A stretch of 64,000 nt of DNA, from positions 1-64,000 of IMG/VR virus record IMGVR_UViG_3300008954_000002, one strand, 5' to 3'. The notes under the pieces were generated by a model. That model was given only the letters and a program-made list of their open reading frames with translations, made no database searches and was not told where the DNA came from. Of the stretch, positions 1,229-16,081 are shown piece by piece (the stretch's first letter is position 1; every line of letters begins with the position of its first letter). This DNA is from a virus. The position numbers and the translations under genes were made by a program.

Positions 1229-1235
1229 CAATGGC
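1221..1235 (+). promoter_or_regulatory. Repeated intergenic motif TTTTATTTcAATGGC (copy 2)
   Basis: This is one of five near-identical 15-mers (1-15, 1221-1235, 1458-1472, 1805-1819, 4758-4772). Each is followed at once by a short inverted repeat; copies 2-5 directly follow a TTCG hairpin. Position between a terminator and the next ribosome binding site fits a promoter, perhaps for the phage's own RNA polymerase encoded at 1897; the T run may also simply belong to the terminator. Confidence 0.45.
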
Positions 1236-1282
1236 TTATACGTATGAGGCGTATAACCAATCAACTCATCAAAGGAGCTGAG

Positions 1283-1414
1283 ATGAGTGAGCTGATGCAG
1301 ACAACAATCTTGATAGCTGGAGTCCTAGCCTTGGGGCTGGGAGGCTACCTTGTTCTTCCTAAGGGAGAAGAGGTAGATGAGGTCTGGGACTTCATCAAGG
1401 GATTGTTCAAGTAG
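1283..1414 (+). CDS. Small single-pass membrane protein
   Basis: 43 residues from ATG 1283 with AAAGGAG six bases upstream. Residues 5-27 form a Gly/Leu-rich membrane segment; the tail (EEVDEVWDFIKGLFK) is amphipathic. It sits alone between two TTCG hairpins, so it is expressed as its own unit. Function unknown. Confidence 0.65.
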   Translation: MSELMQTTILIAGVLALGLGGYLVLPKGEEVDEVWDFIKGLFK

Positions 1415-1420
1415 AGGATA

Positions 1421-1461
1421 ATGGGGCGGGTCTCTTCGGAGGCTCGTCCCATACTTCTTTT
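1421..1461 (+). terminator. TTCG-loop terminator
   Basis: A 14-bp stem 1421-1434/1439-1452 with a TTCG loop, then ACTTCTTTTATTTT. It ends the unit of the small membrane protein and runs into repeated motif copy 3. Confidence 0.8.
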
Positions 1462-1472
1462 ATTTTAATGGC
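1458..1472 (+). promoter_or_regulatory. Repeated intergenic motif TTTTATTTTAATGGC (copy 3)
   Basis: Exact 15-mer shared with position 1-15, followed by the inverted repeat TGGC-AATAAC-GCCA. Candidate promoter or RNA processing signal (see copy 2). Confidence 0.45.
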
Positions 1473-1498
1473 AATAACGCCACACAATAGGAGATGCC

Positions 1499-1762
1499 AT
1501 GAAAGCTAGACTTCGTGGTAGCTGCAAGCTCTGTGGTCGCCTGTATAAGGCAGGCACAGAGATCGTGCGCTATGGGTCTGTCAGGCCCTGGGTGCACGAA
1601 AAGTGTGCAGCATCTCGGGAAGTGGTCCCCGAGAATAAAGAAGTGACCATGACCACCTCCCACGGTGAGTGTCCTGGAGAGTTCACTCTATGTACCTGTT
1701 GCGGAGGCTTCTGTCAGGGTTGTGATGACCCTGAGTGGAAGTCCCGCTCAAGAGGTAGGTGA
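1499..1762 (+). CDS. Small Cys-rich putative zinc-binding protein
   Basis: 87 residues; ATG 1499 follows AGGAG by six bases. CKLC (residues 9-12) with a later WVHEKC resembles a treble-clef or HNH-type zinc site seen in many small phage proteins; a second Cys cluster (CTCCGGFCQGC) lies near the C-terminus, giving room for a second metal. The strongly basic ends (RLRGSCK, SRSRGR) suggest nucleic-acid contact. No catalytic motif is seen. Flanked on both sides by TTCG hairpins. Confidence 0.65.
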   Translation: MKARLRGSCKLCGRLYKAGTEIVRYGSVRPWVHEKCAASREVVPENKEVTMTTSHGECPGEFTLCTCCGGFCQGCDDPEWKSRSRGR

Positions 1763-1767
1763 ATCAG

Positions 1768-1813
1768 AGGGGTGGTGGGTCTTCGGGCCTGCCACCCCTA
1801 GCCTTTTTATTTT
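1768..1813 (+). terminator. TTCG-loop terminator
   Basis: 14-bp stem 1768-1781/1786-1799 with TTCG loop, followed by AGCCTTTTTATTTT. The next repeated motif (1805-1819) overlaps the T run. Confidence 0.8.
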
Positions 1814-1819
1814 AATGGT
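1805..1819 (+). promoter_or_regulatory. Repeated intergenic motif TTTTATTTTAATGGt (copy 4), upstream of the polymerase gene
   Basis: The 15-mer precedes GGTCAT-TGGTGTG-ATGACC, an inverted repeat in the same place as in the other copies. It lies 77 bases before the ATG of the DxDGD polymerase-like gene. Confidence 0.45.
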
Positions 1820-1896
1820 CATTGGTGTGATGACCACCCCGTGTGTGAGTGCACGACACTCATGGGTTTCTAATAGTGCAACAACAAGGAGAAGTT

Positions 1897-4707
1897 ATGC
1901 ATAATAGCATGACACCACGCGAGCAGCGGAAGATCTCTGCGGCTGCGACACGACTCGTTAATCGAGTTGCATCGTACGTCACGGCGTTCGTGATGCACGT
2001 TCGTGTTAGAGAGAGAGGAGGTGCGGACTTTCCACATCTTCGCTATGAGAGAGCTGTCACCATGGCTGGGTTGCTGACCCGGTCTGTGGAGACAGGTTCT
2101 CCCGTTGTCATCCACCTGAGGGATCAGGTGAACGCAGATGATGATGACCGTGGAACGGAAGTTCCCCGTGAAGTGATCTTGGCCTTGCGTAAGCAGGGTT
2201 GGGTGAGCATTGCGGGGAAGCACTTGATTCCTAGACAACTTCTTAGGAAGTTGTCTAGGATCTTCCCTCGGGCAGTGGATGCCCTGGCATACCTCGGAGG
2301 ACTGTGTGGTCCTCTGTGGGCTGGAACCTTCATTCGTAACTGTAATGTTACGGTACGGACTATCCGTACGAAGGGAAAGCAGAAGGCTGGGTCGGATGGA
2401 GCCGGAAGGCTCCATCCGAAGCATCCACTGTACAGCATGCTGGACATTGTTCCAGCATCTGCCTGTGCAATTCAGATTCGTGCAATGAATCTGGAGACAG
2501 GTATCTTCATCAAGGGCATTCTCGTTCCTGACGAGAGGTGTCTGGATGAAGACGGCAACCCTGACATCTGGGTCGATTGGCTTCAGATCAAGGGGCGCTG
2601 GAAGGCTGCAGCAAAGACCAAAGCAAAGGCTTCAGACGATCCCATGTCTACACTTGTAGTAGATCTTGGGGTTACCGGAGTCTTTGATCGGCCTGTGCCG
2701 TATTCTTGGAACTATGAGATCCTTGGATGGATCAATAGGACCGAGGAGACGTGCAGGATCATCGATAGCTTCATCCACGAGGCTATCGACCGATACATCA
2801 AGAACGATGGAGACATTGGTTTCTTTCGTCAGATGGCTGAGGAGGACGAGCACCTGAGCTTTATGGCAAAGGCGCTTGAACTCCTAGGGTTGAGTCCTAA
2901 GGCGGTTCCCGAGATCCGTCAGCAGTTGGACCAGAGGGTCAGTTCGTTTCGGTATCTCTGTGTACAGGGAGCCGGGCGGAAGAGTCCTGCTCTTGTGTCG
3001 GTAATTGACAACGGGATTCCCGATGGTCATGCCGTCATGAGGCCACTGAAGATAGACGGAGAGTGGAAATACCTGCCAGGTGACGAAGTCGCCATCACCA
3101 GGTATCCGCTGGTCCTGCCTCAGGCCCTTCGGACTGTGAAGATCATTGATCCTGCCCAATGTGGTTTGGGTCATATTCTGATCGGTGACCATCGCGGAGA
3201 GAAAGCAGTTCCTGCTGGAGCTGTCTATCTCTCCGAAGTCGATCTGGTGGAGGGTCTGATGGGCGATGACGATGGAGACATGGTCATTGTCGATTGGGAT
3301 CCTCGGACTGTGGAGCTGTTCAAGAACAGACTCACATTCCCTGGGTTCAGCAAGAACCATCGGTTCTTGATTGAGCCTGAGGAAGCCGAGGGCTTCGCTA
3401 AGTCATCAGCCAAAACGGATACCGACGAAGGGTTGGATATTCTGTCACAAGACGGTAGAGGCCCTGTAGGGCTTGCTACTGTGTGGCAGTTCTCCTTCCT
3501 GAAGCTCGGGAAGCCGTTCCATGCATTGGCTACCGGTGTACTCGTTCAAGAGTTCATCGATATGGCCAAGCGGGTTGTTCAGTACACAGATCCCAGATGG
3601 GCAATTGAGCCGAAGAAGTGGCTCAAGAACCCTAACGGATCTGTTCAACTCACTGACGGGTGCAAGTTTGCATCTGATTCAGTATGGGTTGGTGAGCATG
3701 GTCTTATTGACATGGACATGCTCAGCTCCTGGGTTAAAGAGCAGATGGCTTGGGCCAAATCGGCAGACCTGCTGCCCTGGCGCAGTAGCAACGGTAGGAT
3801 TCCGTTGTCACAGTGTGAAGACCTGTTGAAGCGTTTTGACGGAGACGTCGAGAATGCAACGACGTTGGTTGAGCATTGTGCCATCAGGGCCTCTGAGTTG
3901 CTGCTCAGGGTAGATGCAATCAGCGAGTCGGAGGAGACAGTAGAACTCCCCGATCTGCTTCTGAAGCTCGTAGAAAGGAGGCTTGGAGTCAAGATGGACA
4001 TTCGTCCATTGGGACTTACATCCCCCGAGTACACAGAGTTGAGGAAGCAGTCTGGACTGCATGATTATGGTGCACAGCTGCATCGGATTTGTAAGCCTGG
4101 CTTGCATACCCGTGAAGAGCGCAACACCATGATTGAAGCAGAGAAGGCTCTGCTGCTGGAACAGTTGAAAGGACTAGCCGACCCTACTAGCGCAAGCTAT
4201 GAGGGAGAGCTAGCCACCAAGCTGCTCCTCATCTGGGTGACGGAGACGTCACAGGTCGGAAACAAGCACTATAGATCTCACCTCAACAGGGCATTCCGTG
4301 CCGTGTTGTGGGAAGGGTCTCCAATCTTGGCAATTGTCGATCCCGACGGGAAAGGCATCGCTGAGAGCGGGTGCTCGTTCATGACGCCAGAGCGACTGAG
4401 GGCTACGTCTCAGTATCTGAAGAACTTTGCTACCACACAGCATGGGCGCGAAGAGATGCTGAGCTTGGTCCCGAATGCGAAGCCAAGTGTATTCTTGGCA
4501 ACGCAGGTTAGCCTGAGTCGTAGTGTGAAGCATGAGGATGAGATGGGAATTCCTCTCACCGATTGCCCACACTGTACGAAGGCAGTAGTCGGACAGGTCG
4601 TGTCCGAAGAGCGAAGAGATCGAAGCGGTGACTTCGACAAACATCTCGGTGCACTGGTCAAGAAGACCAATGTGACACTGGGATGGCCTGACTATACCAA
4701 GAAGTAG
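1897..4707 (+). CDS. Single-subunit DxDGD RNA polymerase (YonO/QDE-1-like double-psi beta-barrel fold), putative
   Basis: 936 residues. Start chosen at ATG 1897, six bases after AAGGAG; the frame is open 48 bases further 5' without such a site. The key evidence is MGDDDGDMVIVDWD around residues 455-468: D457, D459 and D461 fit the DxDGD metal-binding loop of the QDE-1/YonO superfamily, related to the NADFDGD loop of cellular RNA polymerase beta-prime. It is preceded by a region ending RYPLVLPQALRTVKIIDPAQ, in the place where these enzymes have an R-x-P segment before the catalytic barrel. Known members (B. subtilis phage SPbeta YonO) are DNA-templated RNA polymerases; eukaryotic relatives copy RNA. 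The downstream ~470 residues have no recognised domain. No T7-type polymerase or beta/beta-prime pair is seen. Family assignment rests on one motif and context, so a divergent or inactive member is possible. Confidence 0.65.
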   Translation: MHNSMTPREQRKISAAATRLVNRVASYVTAFVMHVRVRERGGADFPHLRYERAVTMAGLLTRSVETGSPVVIHLRDQVNADDDDRGTEVPREVILALRKQGWVSIAGKHLIPRQLLRKLSRIFPRAVDALAYLGGLCGPLWAGTFIRNCNVTVRTIRTKGKQKAGSDGAGRLHPKHPLYSMLDIVPASACAIQIRAMNLETGIFIKGILVPDERCLDEDGNPDIWVDWLQIKGRWKAAAKTKAKASDDPMSTLVVDLGVTGVFDRPVPYSWNYEILGWINRTEETCRIIDSFIHEAIDRYIKNDGDIGFFRQMAEEDEHLSFMAKALELLGLSPKAVPEIRQQLDQRVSSFRYLCVQGAGRKSPALVSVIDNGIPDGHAVMRPLKIDGEWKYLPGDEVAITRYPLVLPQALRTVKIIDPAQCGLGHILIGDHRGEKAVPAGAVYLSEVDLVEGLMGDDDGDMVIVDWDPRTVELFKNRLTFPGFSKNHRFLIEPEEAEGFAKSSAKTDTDEGLDILSQDGRGPVGLATVWQFSFLKLGKPFHALATGVLVQEFIDMAKRVVQYTDPRWAIEPKKWLKNPNGSVQLTDGCKFASDSVWVGEHGLIDMDMLSSWVKEQMAWAKSADLLPWRSSNGRIPLSQCEDLLKRFDGDVENATTLVEHCAIRASELLLRVDAISESEETVELPDLLLKLVERRLGVKMDIRPLGLTSPEYTELRKQSGLHDYGAQLHRICKPGLHTREERNTMIEAEKALLLEQLKGLADPTSASYEGELATKLLLIWVTETSQVGNKHYRSHLNRAFRAVLWEGSPILAIVDPDGKGIAESGCSFMTPERLRATSQYLKNFATTQHGREEMLSLVPNAKPSVFLATQVSLSRSVKHEDEMGIPLTDCPHCTKAVVGQVVSEERRDRSGDFDKHLGALVKKTNVTLGWPDYTKK

Positions 4708-4726
4708 TCAGGTAACAGTATAGACA

Positions 4727-4766
4727 GGGGAGGGGGCCTTCGGGCCCTCTCCCCTTCTTTTGTTTT
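4727..4766 (+). terminator. TTCG-loop terminator after the polymerase-like gene
   Basis: Perfect 12-bp GC stem 4727-4738/4743-4754 with TTCG loop, then TTCTTTTGTTTT. Repeated motif copy 5 overlaps the T-rich run. Confidence 0.85.
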
Positions 4767-4772
4767 AGTGGC
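4758..4772 (+). promoter_or_regulatory. Repeated intergenic motif TTTTgTTTTAgTGGC (copy 5)
   Basis: Two changes from the consensus; followed by the inverted repeat GGCACTCA-TGG-TGAGTGTC. It serves the gene at 4814. Confidence 0.4.
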
Positions 4773-4813
4773 ACTCATGGTGAGTGTCAATAACCAACCA
4801 AGGAGCGTGTGAG

Positions 4814-5203
4814 ATGAAGTCAATTAGTTTGACAATGGCCGAGCTGGGGGTGTGGATGCCCCCGAGTCTTCTGACTGAGGAAAGCAGGAGACAACAAGGA
4901 GCAATTGCTCCCAATGAAGCGTTTGCCTTTTGGGCAGATGTCTTCGGATGGGTCAATCCGGCCCAAGCGCGGCGGGCAAAGGAGCAGCGCCTTAGGAAGG
5001 TGTATGCCATGGCCTCAGCTCTCAGGAGAGACGAAACCCTCCACAAGCAGGTAGTTGTGATTGATCGCGGGTACTACATGGAGAACAAGGATGTGTGCTT
5101 TGCATTCTTCCGGGCTCTCCAGAAGCGTGTGGAAGAGAGAGGAATAAAGTGGGAGGTCGTGTGCTACGGGCCTCAGATGAGGCTCAAGGGCTTCCACTGG
5201 TAG
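4814..5203 (+). CDS. Hypothetical protein, basic, Ala/Arg-rich
   Basis: 129 residues from ATG 4814 (AAGGAG eight bases upstream). A basic middle (PAQARRAKEQRLRKVYAMASALRRDE) is followed by a segment with a KQVVVIDRGYY strand and an amphipathic helix (FFRALQKRVEERGIKWEVVCYG), which looks like an alternating alpha/beta fold. No family recognised. It is a separate unit between TTCG hairpins. Confidence 0.65.
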   Translation: MKSISLTMAELGVWMPPSLLTEESRRQQGAIAPNEAFAFWADVFGWVNPAQARRAKEQRLRKVYAMASALRRDETLHKQVVVIDRGYYMENKDVCFAFFRALQKRVEERGIKWEVVCYGPQMRLKGFHW

Positions 5204-5212
5204 AAGCAGAAA

Positions 5213-5253
5213 GGGGAGAGGGTCTTCGGACCCTCTCCCTGACCTTTTTATTT
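5213..5253 (+). terminator. TTCG-loop terminator
   Basis: 12-bp stem 5213-5224/5229-5240 with TTCG loop, then GACCTTTTTATTT. Last hairpin of this exact type. The following motif copy is degenerate (TTTTATTTACTCC). Confidence 0.8.
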
Positions 5254-5289
5254 ACTCCGTTCCCATCTCAAGGACAACAGCTAACGACT

Positions 5290-5322
5290 CCGTGAGGACA
5301 ATAAATAAATAATCCCTCCTCA
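5290..5322 (+). promoter_or_regulatory. Inverted repeat enclosing ATAAATAAATAA
   Basis: CGTGAGG pairs with CCTCACG around an AT-rich loop containing ATAAATAAATAA (5301-5312). The same AT core recurs between genes at 7596 and 9051 and resembles the T4 late promoter core TATAAATA. It may be a promoter-like site or a stem-loop. Confidence 0.35.
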
Positions 5323-5368
5323 CGTCGGGCTTATGTCAGGGTGTCAACTCGTACAAAGGAGAACTGTT

Positions 5369-5413
5369 ATGCCTATCTCATTGGCAGAAGCAGTTGGCTT
5401 TCGTATTGAGTAA
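5369..5413 (+). CDS. 14-residue peptide ORF (possible leader peptide)
   Basis: ATG 5369 follows AAAGGAG by six bases, as good a ribosome binding site as any nearby gene, but the frame ends after MPISLAEAVGFRIE. It precedes a long structured gene-free stretch, so it may be a leader peptide or the remnant of a truncated gene. Confidence 0.4.
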   Translation: MPISLAEAVGFRIE

Positions 5414-5419
5414 TTAGTT

Positions 5420-6310
5420 TTGCACTCGTAACGCCCCTAACGGGGAGGTGCATAGTCAAAGGGCCTGCGACGATAAACAAGGACCCTGCGGGCTTACAAA
5501 GCTGGTTCCCGGCAGTGAGATGAGCAGTAAGTTATAACCCACGGGCTCTGGAGAGTATTCAGTATGTCTATCTTGAATGAATGCTTTACTATACATATGG
5601 ACAGGTAGAGCGGTGTTGAGTCACCATCGTAAAGATCATAGTGCACTATGGTTAGTGGCTCGTTTTCCTATAGAGAGGAAGAAATGGGCGGAGCTCACAG
5701 GGGTATAGACTACTCCGTTAGTATCCTACCTAGGATCCTTAGGTTCTATTTAGATCCTCAATTCTTACCTACAATTGGGTAGGTAGATCTCTACTATCAA
5801 GCATTAGTTCTATTTATGTAGGTAGCGTTCAATACGCGTCTACGTGCGTACACACTTAGGGTGTGTACTCGATTACGAGCTAAAAACAGATATGTAAGCA
5901 CCGTTTATAAAACGTCAAGGGGTCTATTCAAATTAAATACATATTTCTTTTGTATAGGTGTTTATCCAGTACAGGTAAGAGTGGGCCGGGGTCTGTCAGG
6001 GATCAACTCTTTGAGTCCTATTAGATCCTTCGATCCTATCCAGGGTATATCCTATCAACACTCTTTGTTTCTATCTAGTACTCTTACAGTGAGAGTCTTC
6101 TGGGGGAAGCCTCCTGTGGGCGTACTAATCCTTTCAAGGGAATGATTGGGCCGTGCTCGTTGCACACACTGGGCAGGCCCTATAGAGAACTGGATAAGGT
6201 CGCTGACGCTCCCTACCAATAGGGTCCCGTAAGGGGCCCAATCAATACTCTTCAAGTCTGGGACCCACACTCCCATTCTCGATGTGGGTCCCTATGCAGG
6301 ATCCTGATAG
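5420..6310 (+). ncRNA. Long structured gene-free region B (candidate noncoding RNA)
   Basis: About 890 bases without a credible gene. Stem-loops seen include CCCCTAACGGGG near 5445, CTTACCTA-CAATT-GGGTAGG near 5765, GTACACAC-TTAG-GGTGTGTAC near 5848 and, at the 3' end, GGGACCCACA (6260-6269) with TGTGGGTCCC (6283-6292). The last stem lacks a T run. Many purine-rich linkers between stems look like a folded RNA rather than decayed coding sequence. The family is not recognised; large ornate phage RNAs such as GOLLD or ROOL are possible comparisons. Confidence 0.4.
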
Positions 6311-6409
6311 TGACTATTGAACACCTGGGAGAACCATTCTATTCCCCTTTATTGGAAAATAGTTCAGAAAGATCTATTCCGCGCTGAAAATACCAACCAA
6401 GGAGTACTC

Positions 6410-6649
6410 ATGCTTGTAGCTTTCGAAATACTGATCTACGGAGCTAAGGTTCCCGTATATATCAACCCCAACCATGTAGTCATGTTGAGAGAAGATGAAT
6501 CACCCAACGAGACACGCATGATCCTGTCCAGTGTCAACAGCTGTGTTGTTGCTGGAACCCTCCAAGAAGTAGCACAAGCCCTTCAAGGAAAGACACCACC
6601 CTCCCTGTCAGAAGCAATGCTTGCACATGACATCAACTCACTAACTTAG
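6410..6649 (+). CDS. Hypothetical small protein
   Basis: 79 residues from ATG 6410 (AAGGAG five bases upstream; the open frame extends 5' without one). The pattern is beta-rich at first (VAFEILIYGAKVPVYINPNHVVMLRED, then RMILSSVNSCVVAGTLQEVAQAL), ending in a helix. It is reminiscent of small FlbD/SwrD-like beta folds, but the match is too weak to name. Eight bases separate it from the next gene, so the two form an operon. Confidence 0.65.
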   Translation: MLVAFEILIYGAKVPVYINPNHVVMLREDESPNETRMILSSVNSCVVAGTLQEVAQALQGKTPPSLSEAMLAHDINSLT

Positions 6650-6657
6650 GAGACTAT

Positions 6658-6972
6658 ATGTCCCTGGTAAACAAAGTAAGAGAAGCTCTTGAAGCTCTCG
6701 TAGAGATCGGCAGTACTACTACTGATCACCTAGAAGAATGGCTCCGTATCCGTACAGAAGCTGGAGACACATTCCACGCAACAAGTTTGCGTCATGATGC
6801 AGCACTTACAACCCGCAACATTGAATCAGTAAGAGAAAGACTTGAGTATCTTACCTCTATTGGATCTGTCCCTGAACAAGTACAGATGGCGCTGACCATT
6901 CAGGAATTGTTCCCCAGTGGAGAAGCACTCCTCTCTGACCTTGTGTCATCTTCTTTAAATCCAGGTATTTAG
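6658..6972 (+). CDS. Hypothetical mostly helical protein
   Basis: 104 residues, ATG 6658 after TAGGAG. Composition suggests several amphipathic helices (VREALEALVEIG, IESVRERLEYL). No family or motif recognised. Second gene of a two-gene unit with 6410-6649. Confidence 0.65.
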   Translation: MSLVNKVREALEALVEIGSTTTDHLEEWLRIRTEAGDTFHATSLRHDAALTTRNIESVRERLEYLTSIGSVPEQVQMALTIQELFPSGEALLSDLVSSSLNPGI

Positions 6973-7005
6973 GGGCATAATATATATAGCCAAAAGGAGG
7001 TTGCT

Positions 7006-7416
7006 ATGAATCTGACAGAAGCGAAGAAGCTACTCTCGAGTACAGTCCGGGGAGAGCTCCGCGATCATGCCTTCGGTGACCGAGAGGTCACCTGGTTCGT
7101 CGTCAAGGACGGCCTTATTGTGGCGCAAGCTGCAGAGGGCTACTTCGGCGGAGGCTCCAGTGGGGTGAGTGTCTACACGACGCCCATCCCGTTCGAGGAG
7201 CCGTGGGACTTCGAGACGGGAAGCGGGTACCTGGCGGAGGTGGACGACGAGGCCTACGCCGCTGCCGAGTTCGACGGTCGTGATGCTCGCGAGCTGCTGA
7301 CGTGCGGATCGTTGCGTGTCGGGCGCAACGATGAGACGGGTCCGGACACCTACCGGGACGGGGCGTGCATGCCAGGACTGACTCTCGAGGGAGTCAGGAA
7401 AGAGTTGTGCGGCTAA
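7006..7416 (+). CDS. Hypothetical protein with G+C-rich codon use
   Basis: 136 residues, ATG 7006 six bases after AAGGAGG. The protein is acidic with a Gly-rich turn (YFGGGSSGVSVYTT) and reads as a small beta-rich fold. Third positions are mostly G or C (GAC, GAG, CTC, GTC), unlike genes on either side, which suggests recent acquisition. It is followed at a distance by a TCCG-loop terminator. Function unknown. Confidence 0.7.
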   Translation: MNLTEAKKLLSSTVRGELRDHAFGDREVTWFVVKDGLIVAQAAEGYFGGGSSGVSVYTTPIPFEEPWDFETGSGYLAEVDDEAYAAAEFDGRDARELLTCGSLRVGRNDETGPDTYRDGACMPGLTLEGVRKELCG

Positions 7417-7547
7417 GAGCTCTGCGCAAGCGGTAGGTCCAGAAGCAATCTCAAGAGCATACAGCAAAGACCAAAAGCGTATGCTCTGTGTCGCCCTAGG
7501 AATGGAACAGATGGAGTCTGAAGACGAGTACTGAGAACAATAAAAGA

Positions 7548-7577
7548 ACCCTACTCCGGTGGGGTATCTTTTATTTT
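7548..7577 (+). terminator. TCCG-loop terminator
   Basis: ACCCTAC (7548-7554) pairs with GTGGGGT (7559-7565) around TCCG, then ATCTTTTATTTT. It belongs to the same UNCG-loop family as the hairpins at 1-5.3 kb. Confidence 0.75.
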
Positions 7578-7595
7578 ACTTAACTTCAGTATCTC

Positions 7596-7624
7596 ATAAA
7601 TAAATAGCTCATAAATAATAACTC
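7596..7624 (+). promoter_or_regulatory. ATAAATAAATA / ATAAATAATA repeats
   Basis: Two AT-rich cores in tandem (7596-7606 and about 7611-7620) followed by AACTCC-TTAC-GGAGTT, a TTAC-loop hairpin. They lie between a terminator and the gene at 7666. Similarity to the T4 late promoter core is suggestive only. Confidence 0.35.
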
Positions 7625-7665
7625 CTTACGGAGTTTACTAGGTAGCCTTCACAAAAGGAAACAAT

Positions 7666-7848
7666 ATGAATGAGCTACCAAAGTGGATGGATCCTGATTA
7701 TGAACCGTTGGATGACCCAGCAGTTCGTGGATTTGATGGATTCTTCGATCCACCAGTATATGCTATAGGCAGGATACTGTTGATAACCGTAAGTGTAGGA
7801 GCAGCTATGACTGTTACCACACTCCTTGCACAACTCCTACCAGGATAA
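7666..7848 (+). CDS. Small single-pass membrane protein
   Basis: 60 residues from ATG 7666 (AAGGAAACAAT upstream). An acidic, Pro-rich N-terminal half (WMDPDYEPLDDPAVRGFDGFFDPP) is followed by one membrane helix (residues about 33-57). Function unknown; the shape suits a small phage inner-membrane protein. Confidence 0.6.
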   Translation: MNELPKWMDPDYEPLDDPAVRGFDGFFDPPVYAIGRILLITVSVGAAMTVTTLLAQLLPG

Positions 7849-7852
7849 GATA

Positions 7853-7939
7853 ATGGGACTCTTCCATGGAATGCCACCAATACTCTTCCTTCTGTTTTGT
7901 ATTGGATATGTATACTTCAACTCAAATACCGGGGAATAG
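7853..7939 (+). CDS. 28-residue hydrophobic peptide ORF
   Basis: ATG 7853 lies four bases after the previous stop with AGGA eight bases upstream. The product is one hydrophobic stretch (PPILFLLFCIGYVYF) and a short polar tail. Tight spacing with the upstream membrane protein supports expression, but the length makes it uncertain. Confidence 0.4.
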   Translation: MGLFHGMPPILFLLFCIGYVYFNSNTGE

Positions 7940-9050
7940 CCCAAGCATTCTGCTAGCACAAACAAGTGGGCTTACGCCCACTAACCGTACAGAGCCTGTT
8001 TCCGGCTCACAAAAGCGGCAATCCCCGGAATGCCAACTCCCTCGGGAGATAGGAAAGCGCCCGATCAGGCCAGTGGTTCGTATCAACGGATCCAGCACCT
8101 GACTTGATGGGTGGAGAGATTAAGGGTAGTAGGATACCTGAATACTCTTCAGTAACATATCCAGTGAGCCTATAACCTACTATAGGAGTGCTAAAGATAT
8201 GATATAGGTCACAATAGATTCCAACCTGTAAACGGGTAGTCTGACGAAAAAGAACCACGCAACAGGAATCACTTACAATAGACAGAAGCCCCTACGCTCC
8301 GTAACCGCAAGGTGATGAGCGCCTGAAAAGGAATAGACAAAACACTCGTGGGTGTTAGCATCTATATGGTAAGGATACTGGGATGATCACCCCAAGTATT
8401 GCAAGCCAAGATTGTCCTTGTAAGTTACCAACGGCTGGATGAGTTGGGTGTCAAAACCCTAAGCCAGTGGGGAAAACAGTGAAGGGTGTTATCTACCCGT
8501 GGACATACTATGCGAAATATAAGTAGCATAGGACACTGTTAGGAGAGGATACGGTCCTAAAACTCTCCCCTTATTACATTCTCCTACCAAGGGGAAATGA
8601 TTCCTGGATAAGAAACAAAACTATCCCAACTACTTATAGCGAAAGAACATGCACAAAACACACAGTACTTGTAATGCGCAGACAACCTATAGCCTATAGT
8701 TCCTCTGGCCTATATGCTGATTTGTGCAGACAGAATAGGTGAAGTTCCAAAACCAGAAAGTAGATCATGGTCCCAGTTCATAGTTGTCCTAGACAAGCTT
8801 GGTGGCCAACCTCAATGACCTTCAAGAGATTAACTAAAGGCTCGCCACGCCAGGTAAGGCATGAACCCTGGCTCACTTACATCATGGACTCCTACGTGAT
8901 GTTAGAGGAAAAGGAACTCATTAGTCTCACACCAAATGAGTAACCCACCTCGTAGACACCAACTCCTCCTTGGTTGGTTGTTGTAAGGGTAGTACCACAT
9001 GGCTACCCTGGGACCACACTGCAAACAGCGGCGGTGTGGTCCCCCTTTTT
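7940..9050 (+). ncRNA. Long structured gene-free region C (candidate large noncoding RNA) ending in a strong terminator
   Basis: About 1.1 kb with no credible gene on either strand. It begins with a series of short GC hairpins: AGTGGGC-TTAC-GCCCACT (7965-7982), GAGCC/GGCTC (7992-8008) and CTCC-CTCG-GGAG (8037-8048). The 3' end has GGGTAG/CTACCC (8987-9009) directly followed by a perfect terminator. Purine-rich single-stranded linkers and regular stems are what a large folded RNA looks like. Family not recognised; GOLLD, ROOL and OLE-type RNAs should be compared. Confidence 0.5.
9010..9050 (+). terminator. Intrinsic terminator at the end of noncoding region C
   Basis: Perfect 10-bp stem GGGACCACAC (9010-9019) with GTGTGGTCCC (9034-9043), then CCTTTTT. 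It marks the 3' end of a transcript that carries no gene in its last kilobase, directly followed by TATAAATAAATAA. Confidence 0.9.
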
Positions 9051-9199
9051 ATAAATAAATAAGCTTACCTTACGGTAAGCACCGCACAGGGTGCAAACAA
9101 CCCCCAAAGACAGCCAATAAGTCTGTCAGGATGGCCTCACGGCCATCTCTCCCACAGGTATGGTACTCCTGCCATCCCTAACAATACACGGAGGTATCA

Positions 9200-9466
9200 G
9201 TGGCTGATACAACCAATGAAACTCGAAAGCTCCCCTGGTGGGGTAAGCTTCTCATCGGACTGGTAGGTACTAGTGCTATTATCAAGTACACTCCCGTCTT
9301 GGAATTGCTCACGATGTTTTTCTACATTGTGATGGTTCCGTTCATGCTGCTCGCAAGTGTTGGGATCCTGTCCCAAGGCTTGATCGAGGGAGCCCTCAAT
9401 GGCTTCTCTCAAAGCATGGAAGCAATCAAAGAGCGTGCTGCTAATAAAGTAGCTGCCGCATCCTAA
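9200..9466 (+). CDS. Small two-segment membrane protein
   Basis: 88 residues with a GTG start at 9200, placed by GGAGG (9190-9194). Residues 13-60 contain two adjacent hydrophobic stretches (LLIGLVGTSAIIKYTPVLELL and MFFYIVMVPFMLLASVGIL), then an amphipathic tail. Topology resembles a small holin or membrane-fusion-type protein but there is no family evidence. The next gene starts 32 bases later. Confidence 0.65.
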   Translation: MADTTNETRKLPWWGKLLIGLVGTSAIIKYTPVLELLTMFFYIVMVPFMLLASVGILSQGLIEGALNGFSQSMEAIKERAANKVAAAS

Positions 9467-9498
9467 ACAACAATCCTATTGACAATAAGGAGTCAATA

Positions 9499-9942
9499 AT
9501 GGACATCAATGTAGAAACAGTGCAGAGCGTTCTTGGCGATGGCGTATTCGACGTCAGAGAAATCCGAGGTAACGTTCAGGTTACCTTCAAGGACCTGGCG
9601 GGAATTACCCGTAGGTCTGGAGGACGAGGCAAGGATGACCTGAAGGTTGTTCAGGGACTCGCAGCTGCTCACCAAGCTCTGACTGAAGCAGGATATAGCG
9701 CAGACTCTGTGCATGTGTCTCTGTCTCACCAGAACCGTGAGAAGAACGGCTGGGTTGCTTTCCCTTGTGTTTGGGTCAACCAACCACGAGCACAAGAGCA
9801 AGAGATCACTAAATTGCGTGCTGAGATCGCAGATCTTACCGCAAGCTTCAAGGCGGCAGTCGCTGCACAAGCTGCAGGGACTACTGCACCTGCACCAGCT
9901 CCCCAGGAGGCTACTGAAGCCGAACCTGAGAACCCTCTCTAA
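9499..9942 (+). CDS. Hypothetical protein with Ala/Pro-rich tail
   Basis: 147 residues, ATG 9499 after AAGGAG. The first ~95 residues look like a compact alpha/beta domain (VTFKDLAG.., LAAAHQALTEAGYSADSVHVSLSH). A short coiled coil (EQEITKLRAEIADLTASFKAAVAAQ) and a flexible APAPAPQEATEAEPENP tail follow. Good codon choice and a strong terminator suggest high expression. Function unknown. Confidence 0.7.
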   Translation: MDINVETVQSVLGDGVFDVREIRGNVQVTFKDLAGITRRSGGRGKDDLKVVQGLAAAHQALTEAGYSADSVHVSLSHQNREKNGWVAFPCVWVNQPRAQEQEITKLRAEIADLTASFKAAVAAQAAGTTAPAPAPQEATEAEPENPL

Positions 9943-9958
9943 GAGAGAATCCAATATA

Positions 9959-9991
9959 GGGACACTATCGTAATGGTAGTGTCCCTTTTTT
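9959..9991 (+). terminator. Intrinsic terminator
   Basis: Perfect 9-bp stem GGGACACTA (9959-9967) with TAGTGTCCC (9977-9985), followed by TTTTTT. Confidence 0.9.
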
Positions 9992-10054
9992 ATTTGATAA
10001 AAGAATAAGAGCATAAAACAAATAAACCAGTACCAAGAACGACAGGAAATCTCT

Positions 10055-10116
10055 CCCCCCGACAGGGGGGTATAGTCCTACAAGAAGGACTTGAAACACA
10101 ATCCCCCGACAGGGGG
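10055..10116 (+). repeat. Two CCCCCGACAGGGGG hairpins
   Basis: CCCCCC-GACA-GGGGGG-type hairpin at 10055-10070 and CCCCC-GACA-GGGGG at 10103-10116, both followed by TATA. A third copy with extended stem lies at 14518-14537 (AAGCCCCC-GACA-GGGGGCTT). The identical GACA loop in all three suggests a defined element rather than chance. Confidence 0.7.
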
Positions 10117-10158
10117 TATACCTTAACTAAAAAACCACTAATCACATTAGAGAAAACA

Positions 10159-10347
10159 ATGGGAAGATTTAGAAGAGGAAGAGCAGCAAAGGCTGATCGT
10201 AAAGAAAGAGTTGCAGTGTTAGCTGAAGAGTATGCAAAGCGTACTCCAAAGCAACAAGTAGCTCTCCTGGATCAAAGGCTTGGGAAGGGAGCAGGGGCCG
10301 TGAAGGAACGTGCTCAACTTCAAAAGAGAATGGGTTCTATTACTTAA
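10159..10347 (+). CDS. Small highly basic protein
   Basis: 62 residues from ATG 10159. Arg/Lys-rich throughout (MGRFRRGRAAKADRKERVAVLAEEYAKRTPKQQVALLDQRLGKG), predicted helical. It has no clear Shine-Dalgarno site but codons look real. Could bind nucleic acid; the same composition is frequent in small phage proteins of unknown function. Confidence 0.5.
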   Translation: MGRFRRGRAAKADRKERVAVLAEEYAKRTPKQQVALLDQRLGKGAGAVKERAQLQKRMGSIT

Positions 10348-10713
10348 ATAAGAACAACCCCTCATGTATCACATTAAGGGTTGAGTTCTAAACGCTTAGA
10401 AACATTAAACTAAGTACTGTTGTAATCAAATATTAATACCACTGTAATGATACTGTAATGGTTTCTTAATAAAACTACTATGTTTTGGTGAATTCAAAAT
10501 TGAGTTTTTGGGTACTTTTAGGTGTTTTTAAGGAAAATCACTACAAAAGCCCGCTAACTATCTGTAATTGATGGAGAAACTCTAATTAGCTTGTTGGTAA
10601 GAAACCAACCATTATCTTGTAAGTATATGTTATTGCTAGAGAATATAGAATCTACTAGATAACACTTATAAGTTCTTATTTAAGACAAACTAATCTTTCT
10701 TATTAGAAACGGC

Positions 10714-10743
10714 TTGACAGAAAAGTATTATCAGTCTTATAAT
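10714..10743 (+). promoter_or_regulatory. Near-consensus sigma70 promoter
   Basis: TTGACA (10714-10719), an 18-base spacer and TATAAT (10738-10743), both hexamers perfect. Expected start of transcription is near 10750, inside the 26-bp perfect palindrome 10747-10772. No gene follows for more than 1.3 kb, so the product is likely an untranslated RNA, read by the host polymerase. Confidence 0.8.
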
Positions 10744-10746
10744 AGC

Positions 10747-10772
10747 TTTTAGATGATTTAAATCATCTAAAA
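10747..10772. promoter_or_regulatory. 26-bp perfect palindrome over the expected transcription start
   Basis: TTTTAGATGATTT and AAATCATCTAAAA form an uninterrupted palindrome four bases after the -10 box. As DNA it could be an operator for a dimeric repressor; as RNA it would give a 5' terminal hairpin that protects the transcript. Confidence 0.6.
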
Positions 10773-12007
10773 GGAAGAATCACCCTTTAACTGCAGGAAT
10801 CAAGGGTTCATTCTATTGACTTATATAGAAGTAGTTGTTCAGAGACTAACTCCGACTACTCTTAGAGAGAATAAGTACTAACAGAAGTGTTTGTATAGGG
10901 TGGAAAGTGCTCTTACGTGCAGGAATGGCTGGTTTTGTATAAAAACAAAGCCTATAGAAGAGAACTTAGTCTTAAGTACGCGGGCCAACCCCTTCATACT
11001 TGCAGGAAAGAGTGTTTATAGCGTGATTTGCGCGGCTAAATAGACACCCCAAACCAAAACCCCTTTGTACTGGCTAGAATCAAAGGTCACAATTGAAAAC
11101 GAAAGAGTATCCCTTATAGGGGAATCGATTGTTACGTGCGTGCCGTGGGGGGCGCGGGAATATTACAACACCCCTAAAAGACCCAATAGTGTCTTCCCAA
11201 AACACCTATTTCCCCAAAAAGAGCAAATATACCAAAAACACCTAATACATGAACTAATAACGTATTAATACATGTAATAGTTGTAATAAGTAAGGTAAAA
11301 GGTGGGTGTACTGCTCTGAATGGGTAGAAAGATATATAAAAAGGGTGTGTGGGGGAGTACGTGGAGTACAGGGACCTTACGTGGACCCTGTAAGAAGTGC
11401 CTAAGTGTACGCAGCACCCTATAAGACCCTAGAGACACCTAGGAGAGTACTTAGAGTAATACTCTACTTAGACTTTATAAGTAAATAGATCTTATATCCT
11501 TTACAAAGAAGAAAGAATGGGCCGGTGGTTTTTGCTACCTAACTTAGTCTACAAACACCACTTACACGCTAAACAGGCAGATAATGCGGCCTTACAGCCG
11601 CATACCAAATGGTATGCATTCGCTACCACCTGAGGCAATCATAAGCCTCAATAACTAAACCTCAGCTTCCAGAGCGAGTAATTATGGTACTGGAAATGTT
11701 AATTAACTATGACGGGACTATCTTTAGCGGGAAATCTCGTTAACGTAGGGGAACAAAAGTTAGAACAAAATCCTTTACATATTATAGTTATACTTTTAAT
11801 AAGAAAGAATGGCGTTGATCAAATGTATATTTAAGTGATTTCAATACTTTGAGAGTATAAAAAGATCAGCCGCCGGGAATTCGAGTACTAAAATAATCTT
11901 AATGATCTTACAGAAAAGAATAACTATATCAACTACTTACACGTAATGTGAAGTAAATATATTTAGCATAGAAAGAGTACTGGGTGGGCCCCGATAGGGG
12001 CTCATCC
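10748..12007 (+). ncRNA. Promoter-driven structured gene-free region D (candidate large noncoding RNA)
   Basis: About 1.26 kb without a credible gene (the 67-codon frame at 11065 has no ribosome binding site). It carries three copies of TGCAGGAA (near 10794, 10917 and 11001), hairpins such as ATGCGGC-CTTACA-GCCGCAT near 11582, a long-range pairing GGCG..TGATC (11812) with GATCA..CGCC (11865), two copies of AAGAAAGAATGG (near 11508 and 11800), and an 11-bp closing stem 11982-11992/11997-12007 with a GATA loop. The promoter at 10714 points into it. Whether it is one RNA or several cannot be told. Confidence 0.55.
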
Positions 12008-12109
12008 TACCTCTTGTTGCTAGATCACACGCAACCTCTAACTCGTAGCTATCTGTATAAAACACGTACTTTTATAGTAAATAAGCTAAGTAAACAACAG
12101 AGATAAACT

Positions 12110-12499
12110 ATGAACACTCAACCATCACAAGAACTTCTTCCTTGGAACAAATATATATTTGAGCTAGCTAAGAGTGCTCCAACACTTGCAGGCCTAGTAA
12201 CAGTATTGAATGCATATACTTTACTAAGAGAAGCATGTGCTACTGTAGGTCAGCTACGCAATTGGCGACCTATATTCGTAGAATTCCTAGGTAGACTTTC
12301 TGAGTTGTCTGAACTACAACAAGAAGAATTTATTGCACAATGGGAAACCTACCATACAAATCTTGAACTAACCGACTCAGGATATTGGTATCAGTTACTA
12401 CAAGCTATCATAAAAATAAAACCACTAGGACATCCTCACTGGGCAAATCATTATGTCATGAGAGACGTAGTGTGGAATGCAATACGTAAACTTGAATAA
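12110..12499 (+). CDS. Hypothetical protein
   Basis: 129 residues, first gene of a long AT-rich + strand block; ATG 12110 with AGAG upstream. Trp- and Leu-rich, predicted all-helical (AKSAPTLAGLVTVLNAYTLLREACATVGQLRNW). No motif recognised. 12 bases separate it from the next gene. Confidence 0.6.
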   Translation: MNTQPSQELLPWNKYIFELAKSAPTLAGLVTVLNAYTLLREACATVGQLRNWRPIFVEFLGRLSELSELQQEEFIAQWETYHTNLELTDSGYWYQLLQAIIKIKPLGHPHWANHYVMRDVVWNAIRKLE

Positions 12500-12511
12500 G
12501 GAAAAGTACCA

Positions 12512-12841
12512 ATGATTATATATAATAGTGATATATGCGATAGCAACAACAAACCAACAATAACTGCTCTTCAAGCAGGAGACATACTAGTATATAGTAT
12601 AGAGGAAACAATAGCAGTAGCTCGGGACGGAGAAACCTTATATTGGGAAGGTGGAGCATCAAAAAAACTCCTACCTAGCCCCACAGGCAGGAATATACTT
12701 CTAGTTAGTATTATTGCAGACATTGTAGGATTAGTAGCAGTATCTATTTCTGATACACAAAGTGGATCTTGGAGATTTCTTCTGAAAGAGAGTACCTCTG
12801 AAACTACCCATCTTAAAAACTTTAGAGATAGAAATAAATAG
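12512..12841 (+). CDS. Hypothetical protein, beta-rich
   Basis: 109 residues. Alternating hydrophobic residues (ITALQAGDILVYSIEETIAVARDGETLYWEGG) suggest a small beta barrel. A hydrophobic patch (NILLVSIIADIVGLVAVSI) is probably core rather than membrane. Function unknown. Confidence 0.6.
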   Translation: MIIYNSDICDSNNKPTITALQAGDILVYSIEETIAVARDGETLYWEGGASKKLLPSPTGRNILLVSIIADIVGLVAVSISDTQSGSWRFLLKESTSETTHLKNFRDRNK

Positions 12842-12875
12842 AGACTTATTCATACAATTTGATAGCATAACTACT

Positions 12876-13214
12876 ATGCAATTACTTATTGGAATAGGTC
12901 TCTATTGTTTACTACATATATTGATATGGTTTAGTTGTAATACTCAGTTTATGACAAGTAAATGGGCGGATAGCTCGCTGATAATCGCACTATTACTTTC
13001 TATACCAATAACTCTTACTGGATATTACGCAGCTAAACTAACCTATCAATCAGTAGGTAGCGCCTGGAATATAAGATTCATAGCTTTTGGACTATCATAC
13101 CTAGTTTTCCCCATACTTACCTATTGGTTATTAAATGAGAGTATGTTCACACCTAAAACAGTAGTGTGTATCATGCTCTCTTTTTTAATCTTATGGATAC
13201 AACTTTACTTCTAA
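12876..13214 (+). CDS. Small polytopic membrane protein
   Basis: 112 residues with four hydrophobic segments (about 2-19, 30-50, 63-83, 92-111) and almost no soluble loops. Within the small-gene operon 12110-14349. Function unknown. Confidence 0.6.
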   Translation: MQLLIGIGLYCLLHILIWFSCNTQFMTSKWADSSLIIALLLSIPITLTGYYAAKLTYQSVGSAWNIRFIAFGLSYLVFPILTYWLLNESMFTPKTVVCIMLSFLILWIQLYF

Positions 13215-13227
13215 CAAAACATAAATA

Positions 13228-13662
13228 ATGAAACTAAGAGAACTAATAGCCGATCTCGTTCACCAAACTTGGTCAGAATGGTGGGAATACCAAAGCTCAT
13301 GTTCAACCAGAAGCATGGACTTTAAAGGACAACAAGTTGAAAATGGAACAACCTTCCTAACTATTCCACCAACAAAAGTAAGACGCTGGGATCGCCAAGC
13401 CAATACACCTTATAAAGAGCTGACACCTGAAGAACAAAAATCTGATCTAGAGATTGCTGATCGCTATATTGAACTAATGTATAAAAAAATACAACGACTT
13501 CAGTACATAGAAGAAGCAGCTTTAGGTCTTTGTGAAGTTGGTTTTTCATCACCATCTACCATAGAACATGATCCTGAAATTAGCTGCACCCATGACGAAT
13601 GGAGAGCAGCAGCAGGTCACTTTGTACGTATGGTTAATCCACCTAAAAGAGATGAAGAATGA
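13228..13662 (+). CDS. Conserved phage protein of unknown function
   Basis: 144 residues. The arrangement WSEWWEYQ near the N-terminus, then FLTIPPTKVRRWDRQANTPYKELTPEEQKSDLEIADRYIEL, is a pattern I know from many phage genomes (W-x2-W...R-W-x-R-Q-x-N-T-x-Y-x-x-L...E-x-x-SD...AD) in proteins of unknown role that resemble RyR-repeat domains. The C-terminal half is helical. The stop overlaps the next start (ATGA). Confidence 0.7.
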   Translation: MKLRELIADLVHQTWSEWWEYQSSCSTRSMDFKGQQVENGTTFLTIPPTKVRRWDRQANTPYKELTPEEQKSDLEIADRYIELMYKKIQRLQYIEEAALGLCEVGFSSPSTIEHDPEISCTHDEWRAAAGHFVRMVNPPKRDEE

Positions 13663-13808
13663 CTCCCAGCTTAATGATCCTCTTAGGCGGTATAGACACC
13701 TATAGTATCATATCGGCTCATTTACACAACCTAAAAAAAGCCCATCCTAACCTATCTATATATGAGTACTATAAATGTAGCTGGTATGTAGTTGAAAAGG
13801 AAAAATGA
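13659..13808 (+). CDS. Hypothetical 49-residue protein
   Basis: Starts inside the stop of the previous gene (ATGA at 13659) and its own TGA overlaps the ATG of the next gene (13805), so translational coupling on both sides supports it. The protein is MTPSLMILLGGID... with a Tyr/Trp-rich end. Function unknown. Confidence 0.55.
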   Translation: MTPSLMILLGGIDTYSIISAHLHNLKKAHPNLSIYEYYKCSWYVVEKEK

Positions 13809-13993
13809 TTAGCATAGCTTATAAATATTACTTACTGGAAATAGTGTTCCTTAAAACACAGAAAGCTGTTCTTGCCAGCACAGCTAAGGATCCTCTTATA
13901 TTAGATCTAATAGCAGAAAAACTAGATATACTCTGGCAACAAATGACACCTAATCAAAGAGAAAAAGCACGTCGACGACATCTAAAGAAATAA
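13805..13993 (+). CDS. Small helical protein, paralogue A of a tandem pair
   Basis: 62 residues. Shares with the next gene the layout A-Y-x-Y-x-x-L-E....., a central D..LD.LW.QMT motif and an E..A.. C-terminus (DILWQQMTPNQREKARRR versus TSLWNQMTTSEQEAANQR). The pair looks like a tandem duplication. Function unknown. Confidence 0.6.
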   Translation: MISIAYKYYLLEIVFLKTQKAVLASTAKDPLILDLIAEKLDILWQQMTPNQREKARRRHLKK

Positions 13994-13994
13994 A

Positions 13995-14195
13995 ATGACT
14001 AATGCCGCTTACCGCTACTTAACCTTAGAAAATATCTTAATAGATATGCAAGAGAATATATCTTGTATACAAGACATATCATTAAAACCATATATAGATG
14101 AAATGACATCTTTATGGAATCAAATGACAACTAGTGAACAAGAAGCAGCTAATCAACGAGCAGATCATTACTTGAATAAAAAACAGCATGGATAA
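13995..14195 (+). CDS. Small helical protein, paralogue B of a tandem pair
   Basis: 66 residues, one base after the stop of paralogue A. Shares the LWNQMT....EQEAA core. Overlaps the next gene by eight bases. Function unknown. Confidence 0.6.
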   Translation: MTNAAYRYLTLENILIDMQENISCIQDISLKPYIDEMTSLWNQMTTSEQEAANQRADHYLNKKQHG

Positions 14196-14349
14196 AAAAC
14201 CTAATCTTGATATAAACAAGATCAGAGAACGCTTAACAAAAATGGACATGCTACATATAGTTCCAATCTTCTATACAAGTACAATATTAGAACTTTGTGA
14301 CGAAGTAGACAAATTACGTAAACAAGTAATTGAGCCAATAAATAAATAG
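14188..14349 (+). CDS. Hypothetical 53-residue protein
   Basis: ATG 14188 lies in the end of paralogue B. Reads MDKKPNLDINKIRERLTKMD.. with a helical second half (TSTILELCDEVDKLRKQVIE). It ends in ..AATAAATAAATAG followed by the TTAC-loop hairpin GCGGCG-CTTACA-CGCCGC. A plausible small phage gene. Confidence 0.5.
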   Translation: MDKKPNLDINKIRERLTKMDMLHIVPIFYTSTILELCDEVDKLRKQVIEPINK

Positions 14350-14517
14350 CGGCGCTTACACGCCGCATCCTCATAGCATTTAGCTTTAATAACTTTGAAA
14401 AACAACTATTTCCATTTTGGAAATAACTCAATTCTGACTAAAAAAGAAGGAAAAGAGATAAAAATCCATCACAATTGTAGGATTTGTACTTTAGGTATTA
14501 TTTCTAAACCTAACAAA

Positions 14518-14537
14518 AAGCCCCCGACAGGGGGCTT
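14518..14537 (+). repeat. AAGCCCCC-GACA-GGGGGCTT hairpin
   Basis: Third copy of the CCCCC-GACA-GGGGG element seen twice near 10.1 kb, here with an 8-bp perfect stem. It lies in the leader of the next gene, 41 bases before its ATG. Confidence 0.7.
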
Positions 14538-14578
14538 ACCCTCCTTACAACTAGTAACAAAAGGAAGCAGAAGTACTA

Positions 14579-15418
14579 ATGCTAAGAGAACCTATAGATC
14601 TAACCACTAGCATCAACGAAAGACTGACTAGAACAACTAATGTTTACTTCGTAGAAGCTGAGTTTAATCGCAGATGCTACGGAGGAAACCCACATAACCA
14701 AGAGGTATTTCGTAAACATATTGAAATGTCTCTAAAAAAAGAGGTTAAAGCTTCCTTAGAAAAAGAAGAAGAACCTCTTACAGAAGAAGAACTAGAATCT
14801 ATTATTGAACAACGCATGGAAGAAATGTTTGGTCAGAATACTAATACTTCTTCAGAAGAAGTACCTAAAAAAACACATTCTGGCTTTAAAACTAATAGTA
14901 TAGGTCCTTATATCGAAACAAGACAAATAAAAGCAATGATGAGAAATACAATGTCTCATCTAGGGATTACAGTAGAAAGAAAAGGAACCAAAGCTACTCT
15001 TAAAGGACTGGTCAGACTAATTGCTTGCTTACCACCAGGCACACCACTTGATATTAAAAACTCTGATCAAATCAACTTCTGGAAGTCCAATGAAAATCAT
15101 GAGCTTGAAGTAATATCTAAGCCTGATGGAACACATCAGATGGTAGTACATGCAAACACACCACGAGGTGTTGTAACTGCTGTTAAACAACATGATTATG
15201 TAGAAAATGCACGTATCTTCTTCCTAATTGAAGTACCAGCTAATCTTCCATCAAATAGAACTAAAGCTACCCTTCGTGATAAAGAAATAGAAATGATTCT
15301 TGGTCATGCAGGTAGAAGTAGTGGCTTAGGTGCTTGTCACAGTACAGGAGCAGGAAGATTTACAATAGCCTCTCTACAGCGACTTACTGATATACCTTGG
15401 GTACAGAAAGCTAACTAA
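14579..15418 (+). CDS. Conserved hypothetical phage protein (RAMP-like Gly loop)
   Basis: 279 residues, ATG 14579 after AAAGGAAG. An acidic linker (residues about 65-90, many Glu) separates an N-terminal part from a C-terminal domain that ends HAGRSSGLGACHSTGAGRFTI. A Gly-rich GLGA-x-x-S-x-G-x-GRF loop of that kind is typical of RRM/RAMP-fold proteins such as Cas7/Cas6-like families, but no CRISPR genes are near. I name only the resemblance; many phages carry proteins of this build with unknown role. Confidence 0.55.
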   Translation: MLREPIDLTTSINERLTRTTNVYFVEAEFNRRCYGGNPHNQEVFRKHIEMSLKKEVKASLEKEEEPLTEEELESIIEQRMEEMFGQNTNTSSEEVPKKTHSGFKTNSIGPYIETRQIKAMMRNTMSHLGITVERKGTKATLKGLVRLIACLPPGTPLDIKNSDQINFWKSNENHELEVISKPDGTHQMVVHANTPRGVVTAVKQHDYVENARIFFLIEVPANLPSNRTKATLRDKEIEMILGHAGRSSGLGACHSTGAGRFTIASLQRLTDIPWVQKAN

Positions 15419-15469
15419 CAGTTACTTACCGCGCCAATCCTCGTCAAGCCTTTGACTTGGTATGGAAAT

Positions 15470-15539
15470 GGCAGGGGGCTTAGCCCCCTGCCAGCTTATC
15501 CTTGAGCATATAGAACATGGCAAGGCAAGCCTTGCCATG
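15470..15539 (+). terminator. Two strong hairpins after 14579-15418
   Basis: GGCAGGGGGC-TTA-GCCCCCTGCC (15470-15492) and CATGGCAAGG-CAAG-CCTTGCCATG (15516-15539), each a perfect 10-bp stem. No T run follows, so they may stabilise mRNA ends instead of terminating. Confidence 0.55.
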
Positions 15540-15607
15540 AGAGGGTCTATATACTTGCAACATTACCTCTAATAACTATCTAACAAATAGTAAAAAATAA
15601 AAAACAT

Positions 15608-16081
15608 ATGTTAAATGCTCATCTTGAACAATTAAACTATGAAAATGACCCAAGAGTAAAAGCTTCTAATAGTATAAAGCCTTGGATCTTACTAGAAATA
15701 GAGAGATATGCTGGCAATTTTCGCCTAAATGATTCTCTATTAGAATATCTTATTGAAGAAAAAATACCAGTTAGAAAAACAGGTGAATATACTCTTCAAA
15801 TTAGAAGAATTATATGTTCTCTATGCCATGGGTATGGCAAAGTTATTAATCCCTCTATTGATTGTAATGGTCTAACTCAGGAAGATTTTGATCAAGAACC
15901 AGGATTTGAAGATGACTACAACATAGGCATGTATGACATTACCTGTCCTCAATGTAAGGGGAAAAATATAGAAATTATTCCTATATCTCCTCCTAAATTA
16001 AAAGAAGCCATTGCTAGCTGGATACAAGCTGAATACGAATATGAAGCTCAAGCTCGTCAAGAGCGAATAATGGGCTACTAA
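15608..16081 (+). CDS. Zinc-binding phage protein (DnaJ-type Cys motifs)
   Basis: 157 residues. CSLCHGYG (near residue 70) and CPQCKGKN (near residue 118) form a pair of CxxCxGxG-type knuckles that would bind one zinc ion. The N-terminal helical part has DSLLEYLIEEKIPVRKTGEYTLQIR. Such single DnaJ-like zinc modules are common in small phage proteins, probably for RNA or protein contacts. Function otherwise unknown. Confidence 0.65.
   Translation: MLNAHLEQLNYENDPRVKASNSIKPWILLEIERYAGNFRLNDSLLEYLIEEKIPVRKTGEYTLQIRRIICSLCHGYGKVINPSIDCNGLTQEDFDQEPGFEDDYNIGMYDITCPQCKGKNIEIIPISPPKLKEAIASWIQAEYEYEAQARQERIMGY

Follow-up and report, generated by a model that had tools for sequence, protein, structure and literature searches.

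The region at positions 7940–9050 of the window, which is the first 64 kb (64,000 bases) of a 161,098-base IMG/VR virus record of an uncultivated phage, is confirmed by comparative analysis to encode a real non-coding structured RNA. Comparison with a distant relative shows that the predicted fold, which begins with the 5′ domain, continues with a five-way junction, and closes with a last hairpin and the terminator, is kept with many compensatory changes. We give a probability of about 0.7 to the reading that the RNA is a large phage non-coding RNA of a new family of the GOLLD/ROOL kind, which would form the 3′ part of an operon and act in trans as a folded RNA. The first-pass annotation had described the region as a large, structured phage RNA that encodes no protein and ends in a terminator, and this description is borne out by the covariation with the relative, in which the region is also non-coding.

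The RNA extends from about 7985 to 9047 on the + strand, approximately 1,050 bases, with its start between about 7985 and 7992. The region had been called gene-free, which was found to be correct: neither strand of 7940–9050 contains an open reading frame (ORF) longer than 83 amino acids, and no translated similarity to the counterpart in the relative was detected using tblastx. That counterpart, in which a protein-coding homologue had been named as the finding that would speak against an RNA, codes on neither strand, and the region is thus non-coding in both phages. The 3′ limit proposed earlier holds at the terminator end (9010–9050), whereas the proposed start at 7940 does not, as the homologous RNA begins at about 7985–7992 and the stretch of 7940–7984 adds one hairpin without a match in the relative. 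The GGGTAG/CTACCC pairing reported to close the region is present at 8986–9009 and is followed by the intrinsic terminator, whose stem of 13 pairs, including one G-T pair, occupies 9010–9043 before the T run. The neighboring gene-free regions mentioned in the first-pass annotation are also present, at about 5205–6410, 7417–7665, and 10350–12110.

The comparison rests on two divergent members and one near-identical copy of the region, the latter on a 38-kb IMG/VR contig. The divergent relative, L006, is a distant syntenic phage on a 30-kb IMG/VR contig, which was found using the protein encoded at 1849–4704 as bait. Its homologue of this protein is 36% identical over the alignment, and the two proteins of 88 and 147 amino acids encoded after the RNA in the window have homologues in L006 with identities of 44% and 37%, so that the shared proteins are 36–44% identical. 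L006 has two gene-free, well-folding regions, and the one that contains the RNA is about 650 nt long. The large 1849–4704 protein also occurs in two further relatives, L010 and L012, of which L010 encodes both small proteins as well; in L012, the 88-aa protein has a likely counterpart that was seen by eye only.

A weak blastn similarity (E = 0.018) between about 7997–8076 of the window and about 19327–19410 of L006 led to a comparison of the energy folds of both phages. The folds, calculated separately, both show a closing helix of 8 bp followed by an inner one of 3–4 bp and by the same four hairpins, the second of which is CCU-GAAA-AGG in the window and CCC-GAAA-GGG in L006. In the window, this five-way junction consists of a closing helix of 8 + 4 bp, with the outer helix at 8271–8278/8418–8425, and four hairpins including CCUGAAAAGG.

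A covariance model, R1, was constructed from 156 nt of the L006 module alone, which avoids circularity. In the unfiltered search of positions 4700–20000 of the window, its best match scored 42.4 bits (E = 4.3e-12) and covered exactly 8271–8425 of the + strand, and the second-best match reached 13.9 bits. The model derived from L006 alone therefore found the same module that the independent energy fold had drawn in the window. A peak of R1 at 28683 (19.3 bits, E = 0.0009) was rejected, as it lies within coding sequence; it indicates that the E-values of R1 are optimistic, so that the gap between the best and the next score is the better guide. The R1 alignment has standard pairs in 98% of its cells, and both sides changed in 23 of the 50 base pairs, compared to a mean of 11.5 in the shuffles, none of which (0 of 500) was as high as 23, and to 1–4 in the slid controls. 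Since the structure had guided the alignment, these pair counts lean towards it; the unfiltered score gap is free of that bias.

A second covariance model, R3, constructed from the 5′ domain of L006, gave a match at 7991–8105 with 31.1 bits (E = 7.1e-7), where the next match had 11.3 bits. The R3 and R1 domains were found independently, in the same order and on the same strand. In a hand count of 29 pairs in the 5′ domain, 11 showed double changes, 5 single changes, 12 were unchanged, and 1 was broken. The hairpin after the junction module, the 3′ hairpin, and the terminator also correspond between the phages, with the sequence itself largely diverged. The parts of the RNA and of its putative transcription unit are listed in Table 1.

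Table 1. Features of the structured RNA and of its putative transcription unit (positions in the window).
Feature	Position	Strand	Basis or counterpart
Terminator-like hairpin of the preceding unit	7548–7565	+	
ATAAATAAATA motif, putative (late-type) promoter of the RNA-containing unit	7596–7606	+	predicted function
60-aa ORF on the putative transcript of the RNA	7666–7848	+	
28-aa ORF, predicted single-span membrane peptide, directly upstream of the RNA	7853–7939	+	span assigned by eye
5′ domain	7985–8112	+	R3 match 7991–8105, 31.1 bits, E 7.1e-7
5′ domain hairpin a	7992–8008	+	
5′ domain hairpin b, CCCG loop	8016–8035	+	
5′ domain hairpin c	8037–8048	+	
5′ domain hairpin d	8064–8108	+	
Two predicted hairpins between the domains	8113–8205	+	energy fold; homology not established
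Predicted arm preceding the five-way junction	8217–8270	+	AACGGG as in L006
Conserved five-way-junction module	8271–8425	+	R1 match, 42.4 bits, E 4.3e-12
Hairpin CUGG/CCAG	8435–8467	+	local alignment; CUAG/CUAG at L006 19788–19821
Expanded variable domain	8486–8978	+	sequence comparison; no counterpart of such length in L006
Penultimate hairpin GGGUAG/CUACCC, ACAUG in the loop	8986–9009	+	L006 19902–19920, loop also ACAUG
Intrinsic terminator, 13-pair stem and T run	9010–9050	+	

The many short GC stems described in the first-pass annotation are, by folding energy, no more than expected by chance, whereas by covariation the structure is well above chance. The z-score of 7990–8980 is −2.8, and −3.45 with slightly different ends; coding controls in the same window mostly have z-scores of −2.3 to −4.7, and the gene of the 952-aa protein has −11 to −21. 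As the RNA lies within the range of coding sequences of this genome, folding energy proves nothing here and the case is carried by covariation only; local z-scores were dropped as evidence because the coding controls are equally or more structured. For the same reason, the good folding of 5336–6330 (z = −5.3) in the gene-free region of about 1.2 kb at 5205–6410, and of 11241–12100 (z = −5.1) in that of about 1.75 kb at 10350–12110, is uninformative, and when the other gene-free regions were aligned with the relatives by a profile-type structural method, the result was not discriminating. The variable part of the RNA comprises about 490 bases in the window and about 60 in L006; in its energy fold, long-range pairs conflict with the conserved CUGG/CCAG hairpin, which makes the details of that fold untrustworthy.

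The strongly folding coding sequences are an observation in their own right. The genes at 534–1157 and 1849–4704 contain far more secondary structure than synonymous-codon shuffles do, with z-scores of −20.2 and −15.6, respectively, on the + strand and −10.2 and −15.4 on the − strand. The L010 homologue of the strongly folded gene has a z-score of about −10 on both strands, and the L006 and L012 homologues show little of this. In 300-nt windows, positions 1–5100 mostly have z-scores of −3 to −13, and most of the 64 kb has about −1 to −2. The 952-aa protein encoded at 1849–4704 contains a DDDGD motif and has no match in annotated phages. The Pfam RdRP family (PF05183) matches the L012 homologue with E = 5.4e-12 and the protein of the window with E = 0.0024, which is below the curated cut-off. 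We regard the protein as a probable two-barrel RNA polymerase of the RdRP-like type.

No Rfam family matched the region, either when the whole window was searched or when the isolated 1.2 kb was searched up to E = 10, except for two sub-threshold chance matches, and the L006 region likewise gave only sub-threshold chance matches. The Infernal comparison with large RNA families, which had been suggested earlier, found none, including GOLLD, ROOL, and OLE (up to E = 10). The likeness to GOLLD and ROOL noted at first reading therefore stands for size, phage origin, and complexity, and fails for family membership. At the nucleotide level, the region had no match in 50,697 phage records, and the gene-free regions of the relatives gave at most tiny chance matches. 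DNA patterns from two conserved blocks, applied to IMG/VR and GTDB contigs, found chance matches only beyond the two known members, for GTDB among the matches listed. Neither domain was found in an unfiltered search of the available parts of L010 and L012, nor was the junction found with a two-sequence model in a filtered search of their whole records. With default filters, R1 also missed the copy in the window, and all filtered negative results are thus of limited weight. The blanks of R1 and R3 in L010 and L012 indicate that the RNA is accessory or diverged beyond detection. Three candidate homologues, L006 15230–15960, L010 11430–12103, and L012 13040–13440, were compared, and their homology was not established. 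These results suggest that the RNA family is rare, too diverged for the methods used, or mainly outside the searched collections; the best explanation of the RNA appears to be a new family, small so far, within a group of uncultivated phages.

The 161-kb record contains four copies of the putative promoter motif ATAAATAAATA, at 5301, 7596, 9051, and 14338, all of them on the + strand. By reading, a terminator-like hairpin immediately precedes three of the copies, and the fourth copy lies where an ORF ends. L006 and L010 also have the motif, which resembles the T4 late promoter, TATAAATA. The motif is probably a phage promoter. If so, the RNA would be the 3′ part of a transcript of about 7600–9047, which starts near the motif at 7596 and carries the 60-aa and 28-aa ORFs before the RNA. 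The layout in L006 is alike in kind: ATAAATAAATA lies at 18616 and is followed by small genes, by an ORF for a 30-aa membrane-type peptide (19169–19261), by the RNA, and by a terminator. In both phages, the RNA comes last in its putative operon, with a tiny ORF for a predicted membrane peptide immediately before it. The genes of the 88-aa and 147-aa proteins are placed differently, as the RNA is upstream of them in the window and downstream in L006.

Other features were observed in these genomes. A CCCCGACAGGGG hairpin is repeated between genes in these three very diverged phages, at 10057, 10104, and 14522 in the window, at 20058 and 22607 in L006, and at 14810, 14852, and 14934 in L010. The second structured gene-free region of L006, 15230–15960 (z = −3.3 to −6), contains pieces that resemble tRNA T arms and a terminator, with no tRNA called. 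The window has a phage-borne tmRNA at 26741–27105 with the tag ANNNSFNVALAA, and L010 has a tmRNA too. The 1393-aa ribonucleotide reductase ORF at 55151–59332 shows an apparent intein interruption with endonuclease-like domains.

By analogy with GOLLD and ROOL, the RNA, which may be cut free from the mRNA, would act in trans during infection as a folded RNA or an RNA-protein particle. Among other readings, a structured 3′ UTR on the membrane-peptide mRNA, which controls its stability or translation and has no separate trans role, is unlikely but the most probable. In both phages, the tiny membrane-peptide ORF is followed by the RNA with little space and no ATAAATAAATA between them, and the RNA ends in a terminator. 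However, a fold of 650–1,050 nt with a conserved five-way junction far exceeds what known stability hairpins need, and the upstream peptides are not clearly conserved between the phages. It is very improbable that the RNA is a cis-regulatory leader or antitermination element of the 88-aa and 147-aa genes: the RNA immediately precedes them in the window, but a strong terminator and the new ATAAATAAATA at 9051 intervene, and the changed gene order in L006, where the same genes precede the RNA, makes this role unlikely.

A diverged form of a known large RNA (GOLLD, ROOL, OLE, HEARO, a group I or II intron, RNase P, or tmRNA) would agree with the size, phage origin, and complexity, but the lack of Rfam matches beyond chance, up to E = 10 for the isolated 1.2 kb and also for the L006 region, leaves it equally improbable. 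A decayed gene or a spacer that folds by chance would agree with the ordinary folding energy; the covariation, seen independently in two domains, refutes this reading, barring a systematic error in it, and we consider it barely credible.

Within the preferred reading of a trans-acting large RNA, there are hints of a compact form. A possible conserved pseudoknot pairs UUUCC at 7999–8003 with GGAAA at 8052–8056 (UUCCU with AGGAA in L006), and another pairs CCCG at 8024–8027 with CGGG at 8233–8236, the same as in L006. Beside the terminator, both phages have the ACAUG loop, in which CAUG is self-complementary. The loop and the possible pseudoknots would suit a compact, perhaps oligomeric RNA; being drawn from two sequences with almost no variation, they are a lead and not a test. 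That the RNA is oligomeric is doubtful on present evidence. A still bolder reading, that of a new class of RNA-only assemblies of 650–1,050 nt, oligomerizing via the ACAUG loop, with the RdRP-like polymerase, whose gene lies a few kilobases from the RNA, perhaps transcribing the operon from ATAAATAAATA, is correspondingly less likely.

Among known large RNAs, GOLLD is a large ornate RNA borne by phages and prophages, often longer than 800 nt, with a conserved and a more variable part; ROOL is phage-borne with a complex fold and no known function; and GOLLD, ROOL, and OLE form RNA-only oligomers (PMC12286853). The RNA of the window is similar to GOLLD in being phage-borne, large, and ornate with conserved and variable parts, and similar to ROOL in being phage-borne with a complex fold and a similar size (about 650 nt in L006). 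It differs from GOLLD, ROOL, and OLE in having no Rfam match, and from ROOL also in that assembly into oligomers is no more than a hint here. In GOLLD, the conserved part is the 3′ region, whereas the conserved part of the window RNA includes the 5′ domain. Genes for tRNA are frequent near GOLLD, although not universal, and the window RNA has no tRNA island nearby, the nearest tRNA being at 19790, about 10.7 kb away. GOLLD forms a closed 14-mer nanocage and ROOL an RNA-only nanocage. OLE, a cellular RNA of extremophilic Bacillota, forms a dimer and works with membrane proteins; the window RNA is likewise large and ornate, and adjoins a tiny membrane-peptide ORF. RNA families this large are few, and no function is known for the phage-borne ones, GOLLD and ROOL. 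An additional unrelated family, in a phage lineage in which we found no isolate, would suggest that phages have repeatedly evolved very large RNAs, and the covariation model offers helices that can be tested by probing and cryo-EM and can be used to search for more members.
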